Assembly: GCF_000685155.1 (NCBI RefSeq)
Contig: NZ_JMIY01000007.1
Location: forward strand, 237,041 to 301,040
Length of the DNA stretch: 64,000 nt
From: Candidatus Methanoperedens nitratireducens
GTDB lineage: Archaea; Halobacteriota; Methanosarcinia; Methanosarcinales; Methanoperedenaceae
Reading direction: 5' to 3'
The position numbers and the translations under genes are program-made. The notes beneath the pieces were generated by a model, which was not told the origin of the DNA, searched no databases, and saw only the letters and a program-made list of their open reading frames with translations. This document shows, one piece after another, positions 3,974-62,975 of this stretch (within the stretch, counting starts at the first letter, position 1; each line of letters opens with the position of its first letter).

Positions 3974-4387
3974 GGTGATTACCAACGCCTGCCCAAAACC
4001 ATTGGTAATTTATTCATACACCGTAAAGTCGGCTATAAGCTGTGGTTGTTCATAGATAACAATGAAAAAGACGATTAACAACGAACTCAAAACGAACTTA
4101 AACGAACTCATCAGCCCGAGTTCGTATCGAGTTCGTACCAGTTCGGTGTTTATATTAACTGAACCACATCCGAGTCTAAAATGCGATATATATTGAACTT
4201 TTCCCATGAAAACTTAAATCTATATGTTCAAGCATTACGGTTTTTCATGCTTTACTTAGTAACAAAAATCTTTGCGCTCTTTGCGTGAGAGCACCGTATT
4301 CCCGCGGCAGGCAACTGGAGACTAACGCTAATCTATGTTTTAAAAACAGTTAAGTTTAAATGGCTAACTCATGAATTGGTAATCACC
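3974..4387. mobile_element. MITE-like element 1 (414 bp) with terminal inverted repeats
   Basis: The stretch starts with GGTGATTACCAA (3974-3985) and ends with its exact reverse complement TTGGTAATCACC (4376-4387). Inside, near the left end, ATTACCAA...TTGGTAAT (3979-4009) forms a further hairpin, and the six-heptamer dyad repeat lies at 4077-4150. There is no credible transposase; the only open frame (65 aa, minus strand) runs through the dyad repeat and looks spurious. No target duplication is evident: GAATC on the left, GCTAT on the right. The element ends 10 bp past the stop codon of the cysteine desulfurase gene, so it may affect that gene's transcript end. The left 35 bp recur inverted at the right end of the element at 62744-62925. 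Confidence 0.72.
4077..4150. repeat. Six-heptamer dyad repeat, copy 1
   Basis: Three ACGAACT units at 4081, 4092 and 4102 are followed by inverted units AGTTCGT at 4119 and 4130 and AGTTCGG at 4140. Spacing is 11 and 10 bp on both sides, close to one helical turn. The outer ends AACA and TGTT extend the dyad. About 94 bp around it differ from the 62784 copy at only 3 positions. It could act as an array of protein sites or as an RNA hairpin of three stacked stems. Confidence 0.9.
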
Positions 4388-34602: not shown

Positions 34603-34615
34603 CTTTTATATTAGG
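34603..34615 (-). promoter_or_regulatory. TATA box of HdrE-like copy B
   Basis: CCTAATATAAAAG (minus strand) matches the box of copy A apart from one base and lies at the same distance from the ATG at 34554. The divergent glycosyltransferase-like gene starts at 34635, only 20 bp beyond, so its promoter must overlap or lie within this duplicated leader. Confidence 0.55.
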
Positions 34616-34634
34616 CTTTCGTTGTAAACTACTC

Positions 34635-36185
34635 ATGGCTAAAACCCTGAGTTCCCTGAGATTTATCATGCTACCGGAAAGATGGGTTGATATTATCACT
34701 AATAGATTCCTGATCTATATATTTGTATTGATCATACTAAGTATTTACATAACTGGCAGCCCTCATTTTAATTACAGGTTCCCATTTCATGCAGATGAAT
34801 GGCATAATATAAAAATCGCCCAGGAGATATTAAAAGAGGAAAAAATAATCCTGTATAATCCATTTCTCGCCGGGAATCCATATTATATCAATTTCAATGA
34901 AGAAGCACACGGGGTTACAAATACCAACTCTGCTATGTGGCAGATTAACTACAATCTCCTTGTTGCGTTATCAAGTCTCTTCACAGGAATCCCTGCCCTG
35001 GAGATGGGACTGATCCTTCCCACACTCTTTACCTTTATAATGTCTTTTAATACCTTTATCCTGGTGCGGTATCTTACAAAGAACGATCTTCCTGCATTTA
35101 TGTCGGGTGTTTTTGTCATGACCCTTAAAAGTAATGTAACTTTTCTTGGCCCGTGGTTCCTGGTGGCATCCTCTTTCGGCCTTGCATTTATACCCTTAAT
35201 TCTCTACCTTTTTCTAAAATCACTGGTCTCAGGTAAATATCTTCCGATACTTCTGTTTGTCTTTGCAGCCACTACGTTAGCGCATCCAGCCTCAGCGATC
35301 ATATTCATTCCGATATTTGGCCTCTACATGATATTTAATCCCAGGATAGTCAAACATAATAAAAACAGATTCCTCATCTCCATTGCCATATTACTTATTT
35401 TGCTGCTTGTGATCGTCCCTTTTGAGGGTTCTGTTATAAGCTATATTGTAAAGATACTTAAGGTACTGATCTTCCCGCGCTCAGACCCGATCAATGGGTT
35501 CGTCGCTGTAATGCAGTTCCCGGCGTACATGGGAATAATAGCCTTCGTACTCTCAATTTTCGGCCTCTTTAAAACAATGACGGAGGATGAGGCAAAAATA
35601 CTTCCTTTGTCGGTGGATGCGCTTCTTCCCCTTATACTGGCGTACATCTACCTTGGATATGCCTTCTTAGCCCCGTATGAGCGGGTGGTTCTGTATATCT
35701 CTGAGATCCTGATGATCCTGGCCGGGATCGGGCTGTACCACATATATCGATCAATCGGGAATAAAAGAACTGCTGTAATACTTATTGTTATGATCTTAAT
35801 TCTTCAGATCAGTTCAATACCTGCTTACAGGGATGATATACCGCTGATAATGGGACCGGAGGAATACGGGGCGATCCTGTGGTTAAGAGATAATGCTCCA
35901 CCAGATGCGGTTGTCCTGGCAGCTCCGGGAAGCTCTGAAGCAATCGGTGTGATCGGTGGCCAGAAGGTAATATCCATTATGCGGGGAAGGCTGGGATCAA
36001 GTGAAGAGAGTATTAATAAGAGCATGGGATTTTTCAGAGGAAATACTGAGATGAAAGAGAAAATCCTGTTAGAGCTAAAACCTGATTATGTGTACAGCAG
36101 GGAAGAGATAAGTCTGGAATCCCTGGAATTAGTACATAGCGAGAATAAGATATATATCTACAAGGTAAGATGGCAGAGCTATTAA
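34635..36185 (+). CDS. GT-C type membrane glycosyltransferase (first gene of glycan operon)
   Basis: 516 residues from ATG at 34635. A frame extending to 34578 runs back through the duplicated leader of the cytochrome gene and is rejected. There are about 11-12 membrane helices. After the first helix, NYRFPFHADEWHNIKIAQEI carries the acidic DE motif typical of the GT-C catalytic loop. The C-terminal soluble part (EYGAILWLRDNAPPDAVVLA, then GGQKVISIMRGRLGSS) resembles the end of archaeal oligosaccharyltransferase-like or PMT-like proteins. It overlaps the DUF362 gene by 16 nt. It probably transfers a lipid-linked sugar outside the membrane; donor and acceptor unknown. Confidence 0.72.
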   Translation: MAKTLSSLRFIMLPERWVDIITNRFLIYIFVLIILSIYITGSPHFNYRFPFHADEWHNIKIAQEILKEEKIILYNPFLAGNPYYINFNEEAHGVTNTNSAMWQINYNLLVALSSLFTGIPALEMGLILPTLFTFIMSFNTFILVRYLTKNDLPAFMSGVFVMTLKSNVTFLGPWFLVASSFGLAFIPLILYLFLKSLVSGKYLPILLFVFAATTLAHPASAIIFIPIFGLYMIFNPRIVKHNKNRFLISIAILLILLLVIVPFEGSVISYIVKILKVLIFPRSDPINGFVAVMQFPAYMGIIAFVLSIFGLFKTMTEDEAKILPLSVDALLPLILAYIYLGYAFLAPYERVVLYISEILMILAGIGLYHIYRSIGNKRTAVILIVMILILQISSIPAYRDDIPLIMGPEEYGAILWLRDNAPPDAVVLAAPGSSEAIGVIGGQKVISIMRGRLGSSEESINKSMGFFRGNTEMKEKILLELKPDYVYSREEISLESLELVHSENKIYIYKVRWQSY

Positions 36186-62734: not shown

Positions 62735-62743
62735 GTGCTATTC

Positions 62744-62925
62744 GGTGGTTACCAATCCATGGATTCACCACTTAAAGACGATTAACAACGAACTCAAAAC
62801 GAACTTAAACGAACTCATCAGCCCAAGTTCGTATCGAGTTCGTACCAGTTCGTTGTTTATATTAGCTGAATACAATGGTATGGGAAAAAGTTACCAATGG
62901 TTTTGGATAGGCGTTGGTAATCACC
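62744..62925. mobile_element. MITE-like element 2 (182 bp) with TIRs and 5-bp target duplication
   Basis: The element starts GGTGGTTACCAA (62744) and ends TTGGTAATCACC (62925), a 12-bp inverted pair with one mismatch. TATTC flanks it directly on both sides (62739-62743 and 62926-62930), as expected of a 5-bp target duplication. Inside are a perfect palindrome AATCCATGGATT (62754-62765) and the six-heptamer dyad (62784-62857). The right 35 bp match the left end of element 1 inverted. There is no coding capacity, so it would need a transposase in trans. It lies between a small cysteine-rich gene and rubredoxin. Confidence 0.8.
62784..62857. repeat. Six-heptamer dyad repeat, copy 2
   Basis: ACGAACT at 62788, 62799 and 62809, then AGTTCGT at 62826, 62837 and 62847. 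Spacing and loop (CATCAGCCC) are the same as in copy 1, with the same orientation, although the outer 35-bp end of the element is on the opposite side. All six heptamers are perfect in this copy. Confidence 0.92.
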
Positions 62926-62975
62926 TATTCTCTGGAGCGATAGTTATTTAACTTCATGGAATTAAAACTAATGCC

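Follow-up and report, generated by a model that had tools for sequence, protein, structure and literature searches.

A 182-bp MITE of Candidatus Methanoperedens nitratireducens with the ends of an insertion sequence of its genus and an independent dyad repeat as its interior

A 182-bp segment of the Candidatus Methanoperedens nitratireducens genome (G000; contig NZ_JMIY01000007.1) has inverted ends, a short direct repeat on either side and an array of dyads between them, which raises the questions of whether it moved as a unit, which transposase could have moved it and whether the array belongs to it. The segment, here called element A, lies in a stretch of 64,000 nucleotides (positions 237,041 to 301,040 of the contig), which was analysed as a whole and is referred to as the window (Table 1). 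An earlier note had described A as a MITE-like element that moved as a unit, and its termini and the TATTC duplication were confirmed in the sequence: the 12-bp ends, GGTGGTTACCAA at 62744-62755 and TTGGTAATCACC at 62914-62925, match at 11 of 12 positions, and an exact TATTC adjoins each of them. On the minus strand the order is L end, dyad unit, R end, and the dyad array proper covers about 62783-62860 of the 97-bp unit. The statement that A carries no gene also held, since the single listed open reading frame (ORF) of at least 60 residues across it (68 aa, GTG start) had no Pfam match. Rfam at gathering scores found nothing in the window, the plasmid collection contained nothing resembling A, and a search of IMG/VR with the L-end pattern and the array pattern found neither.

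Table 1. Position of element A, its parts and its sister element B in the window
Feature	Coordinates	Strand	Basis or remark
MITE copy A, 182 bp	62744..62925	-	paired termini, exact target-site duplication, ends align with autonomous IS
Target-site duplication TATTC, left	62739..62743	.	
Target-site duplication TATTC, right	62926..62930	.	
R end of A, 30 bp: GGTGGTTACCAA and subterminal sequence common to IS	62744..62773	.	end alignment
L end of A, ~55 bp: terminal repeat and inverted subterminal copy GTTACCAA at 62890-62897	62871..62925	.	
Dyad unit, 97 bp, six ACGAACT/AGTTCGT boxes, strong hairpin, independent dispersed repeat	62774..62870	+	41 genome copies; fold z
Sister element B, 414 bp	3974..4387	+	L and R ends as in A, perfect 12-bp termini
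Dyad unit inside element B (G000:C7:241107-241203)	4067..4163	+	97% identical to unit in A

To find relatives of A, 31 Methanoperedens genomes, the window's own included, were searched for GGTGRTTACCAA, and this 12-mer was present in 25 of them. Full-length insertion sequences (IS) with GGTGGTTACCAA ends were found in three, with lengths of 1445 bp (G017 and G021) and 1578 bp (G002) and with exact 5-bp duplications (TATTT, ATAAC and ATTTT). Each of these copies (L159, L160 and L161) contains a single long, intact ORF of 411-412 aa that matches DDE_Tnp_1 above the Pfam cut-off (E 6.7e-8, 7.3e-8 and 5.9e-7, in the order L159, L160, L161), and L159 and L161 also show the transposase blocks DST, DGGY and YHRRN..EGINSY.K. 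The earlier note expected such termini to be served by a transposase encoded elsewhere, and this was borne out within the genus, and the objection that no element anywhere might share these termini is excluded. Shorter members of the family, among them L076, L084, L086 and L162, likewise combine these ends with exact duplications. In the DNA examined, perfect termini are paired at 14 distinct places (not counting L052, which repeats element B), nine of which have an exact duplication, in each case of exactly 5 bp; 15 further pairings with imperfect termini include one with an exact duplication.

The likeness between A and these elements reaches beyond the terminal repeats. The R end of A agrees with those of the two 1445-bp IS at 26 and 25 of 30 positions and with that of L162 at 27 of 30. 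When positions 13-30 of this end were compared with the whole 1445-bp IS, the best match (14/18) fell exactly at the IS terminus, the next best reaching 10/18. The first 42 bp of the L end agree at 40 positions with L084, at 37 with element C (see below) and at 31 and 29 with the two 1445-bp IS.

In the window's own 3.2-Mb genome the terminal 12-mer occurs at eight places, which form three pairs, elements A, B and C, and two single ends. Element C (L049:1001-1493; G000:C1:643311-643803) is 493 bp long and is flanked by an exact duplication AAAAT; no element-free orthologous site was found for it among five congeners. For element B no exact target duplication was found, and its interior contains the dyad repeat in a longer version. 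Apart from the 12-mer, the three copies have in common a longer L end, in which the terminal repeat recurs as an inverted subterminal copy, and a distinct R end. When the locus L079 of G024 was compared with window positions 3974-4387, the L end and the CRCARAG boxes were kept at the position of the L end of B; an ACGAACT array, however, was not seen at this position, which is followed by different DNA that includes a maturase-like ORF. Palindromic mini-elements of 40 bp, devoid of target duplications, were noticed at L085:3008-3047, L080:2979-3018 and L164:501-540. They consist of an L end shortened at the point where the internal repeat meets sequence of the far terminus, and they look like deletion products.

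Full-length IS were found only in other species and not in the window's genome. The transposase query matched 24 of the 31 genomes; in the window's genome its remnant consists of scraps of 33 and 22 residues fused in one ORF (G000:C5:135157-135324). Since this assembly is rated 99.77% complete and just a scrap was found, the helper transposase has probably been lost from this genome, and the three copies in it look stranded. A gene for a PDDEXK_3 nuclease of the GxxExxY type lies near the transposase scrap (L198:2602-2985).

The earlier note had the dyad array carried by A. The array is indeed present inside the element, but it is not proper to it. Near-identical copies of the 97-bp unit occur 41 times in the window's genome, the one in A included (the count excludes two diverged L042 copies, below 80%, and L052, which is a duplicate locus). 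The common left neighbour is kept in 31 of the 41 copies; where this neighbour has changed, the left border AAAGACG is still found, as in A, L013, L023, L025, L034, L037, L038 and L044; and many of the copies that have both common neighbours sit, as judged by eye, between CRCARAG boxes. All 30 other genomes of the genus match the 182-bp element (E ≤0.001), and among the matches listed most fall in the array part. In an alignment of 13 arrays (the window's, one diverged copy from the same genome and one each from 11 congeners) the six ACGAACT/AGTTCGT boxes are near-fixed, in contrast to variable linkers, loop and flanks. The array strand folds far better than shuffled sequences (z -6.2 as DNA, -6.0 as RNA). 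A search of L001, L010 and L049 against Rfam with E up to 1 yielded just sub-threshold animal families, in L049. The array is a separate repeat, independent of A, that came to lie within it. With respect to the L and R ends it points in opposite directions in A and B, so it was acquired at least twice.

How much of this structure could arise by chance was assessed by counting 12-bp inverted repeats with at most one mismatch, a span of 60-600 bp and an exact 5-bp flanking duplication in the window and in 40 dinucleotide shuffles of it. Two such structures are present in the real window, compared with a mean of 0.125 (maximum 1) per shuffled window. The other real case, at 34604-34814, is an unrelated inverted pair TTTTATATTAGG with an exact 5-bp flanking match ATCGC. 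With 0.125 cases expected per window and this second one at hand, the evidence from A alone is moderate, suggestive rather than decisive, and a chance inverted repeat that happens to lie between chance 5-bp matches might be considered. The existence of a whole family of paired elements that share these ends and show 5-bp duplications, together with end homology that continues past the 12-bp repeats, leaves this reading a negligible probability; the family rules out a chance origin, and because of it A can be placed firmly among elements of mobile type. The abundance of the array suggests another possibility, namely that what moves is the array, the outer GGTGRTTACCAA repeats being part of its longer form. 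Its 41 near-identical copies and a left border that stays constant next to different neighbours would fit, but only two of these copies, those of A and B, lie between GGTGRTTACCAA ends, the same ends delimit many array-free elements, full-length IS among them, and relative to the ends the unit lies in opposite orientation in A and B, so that we regard this explanation as very improbable.

A separate agent could have brought in the array alone: an IS200-like TnpA (Y1 transposase) of the window's genome might move it, as happens with bacterial REP elements. Array copy L031 has an intact TnpA ORF (146 aa) beside it, and ~100 bp from the copy L017 there is a TnpA remnant. However, among the 29 TnpA loci scanned an array was found at only one, the window genome's own L231, and the junction at L031 is the point where similarity to the TnpA locus L233 begins. 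We therefore consider it unlikely, though less so than the array as its own vehicle, that TnpA placed the array in A, and TnpA as the spreader of the array was rejected for want of a general link. At L221/L031 (G000:C8:11635-12322) the intact IS200-like tnpA element begins directly at the right border of the array copy; an IS200-type element seems to have inserted next to the array here, and L031 was accordingly dropped as a guide to the right border of the array.

The explanation that we favour, with a probability of about 0.94, is that A is a non-autonomous element (MITE) derived from the 1.4-1.6-kb Methanoperedens IS. It is based on the shared unlike ends, the 12-bp termini, the 5-bp target duplications and the DDE transposase of the full-length relatives. 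A is shorter than 500 bp, has terminal inverted repeats and a TATTC duplication but no transposase, and its ends are common to L159 and L160. It thus resembles the prokaryotic MITEs described in PMC10969869 in size, inverted ends, flanking direct repeat, intergenic position and in having the ends of an autonomous IS. It departs from that description in its low number of paired copies (three), in the lack of an intact helper in its own genome and in its interior, which is a foreign repeat and goes beyond a mere shrunken IS. As to mechanism, the transposase would have bound both ends in trans and cut the element out; joining to an intergenic target cut with a stagger of 5 bp would then have left a TATTC on either side. 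The inverted copy of the terminal repeat inside the L end probably serves as a second transposase site. In A the 97-bp dyad unit has taken the place of the interior, be it earlier or later than the last transposition. With the transposase decayed to a scrap in this genome, A is probably immobile now.

Several observations speak against the MITE reading: the modest single-locus statistics, the missing duplication of B, the confinement of full-length IS to other species, the wide spacing of the flanks in L131-L133 and the state of the orthologous site in G024. The latter genome is the closest relative found, and in it the flanks of A, 93% identical, adjoin each other without the element. The empty site proposed in the earlier note was thus found in so far as the element is absent, but ~15 bp around the target differ, being absent as well, and TATTC does not occur there. 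The comparison shows a presence/absence polymorphism between species and not a clean single-TATTC target. L131-L133, the remaining genomes in the alignment of this locus, have >1 kb of other DNA between the flanks.

The interiors enclosed by these ends differ from element to element. Element C contains a 91-aa ORF between TTGTAAC..GTTACA dyads. The ORF was found in 10 of the 31 genomes, and dN/dS values of 0.04-0.36 (15 pairs of six sequences, obtained from six of seven loci; G007 gave none under the filter) place it under purifying selection. Its product matched nothing in Pfam (E up to 1) or NCBIfam (E up to 10). IS-ended elements carrying passenger genes are termed tIS. C resembles them in having the same ends and a gene in place of the transposase; it differs in that the passenger is under purifying selection and is also found without IS ends in congeners, at the loci L098, L099, L103 and L106. 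Among the papers that a literature search on tIS-type elements listed, none dealt with archaea. A further element, L178 of G018, is 1315 bp long, has the duplication ATAAA and contains two other small ORFs without a transposase match. The same IS ends thus enclose several unrelated interiors, which may have arrived by capture or by insertion into the ends. A broader proposal, possible but in our judgement doubtful, is that the IS ends serve as a genus-wide capture vehicle, as the 91-aa gene with its TTGTAAC dyads, the ACGAACT array and the other small genes might indicate, and that the six-box array is an undescribed dispersed Methanoperedens element kept as a protein-binding array. The putative binding function is proposed because the boxes are near-fixed while linkers, loop and flanks drift.

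In the transposase of the IS the Y-(2)-R-(3)-E-(6)-K block is complete; when the protein was shuffled 5000 times, the block arose by chance in 32 cases. According to the IS4 revision (De Palmenaer et al. 2008, PMC2266710), a complete YREK block belongs to the IS4 family, and the DDE transposase described here shares it; in the subgroups of that family, however, duplications are 7-13 bp long, compared with 5 bp in L159, L160 and L161, and none of the ends listed there for them matches GGTGGTTACC. The same source gives archaeal hosts and duplications of 4-5 bp or 5-6 bp for ISH3 and IS1634, with which our elements agree, and the length of 1445 bp falls inside the ISH3 size range. It also gives CRGT ends and E-(3)-(R) for ISH3 and C ends and a mostly absent R for IS1634, whereas the ends here are GGTG and the YREK block is complete. 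The best NCBIfam match is IS1182 (NF033551; L159 with E 1.1e-9 over 76 residues, L161 with E 3.4e-7), but the scores of 37.7 and 29.5 bits are far under the cut-off of 270. Because the 5-bp duplications are closer to ISH3/IS1634 and the ends fit no listed group, the IS behind A was left unclassified; it is probably an archaeal IS that has no assigned family. In titles and abstract openings, mostly of literature accessible without subscription, no description was found of the IS, the MITE or the array for Methanoperedens.

A itself is an ordinary MITE, and its dyad-array cargo is the more interesting part. The analysis provides a defined IS and its MITEs in uncultured methane-oxidising archaea. 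The helper has apparently been lost in one species and is kept in others, which makes trans-mobilisation directly testable, and the ACGAACT array is singled out as a genus-wide repeat worth separate study.
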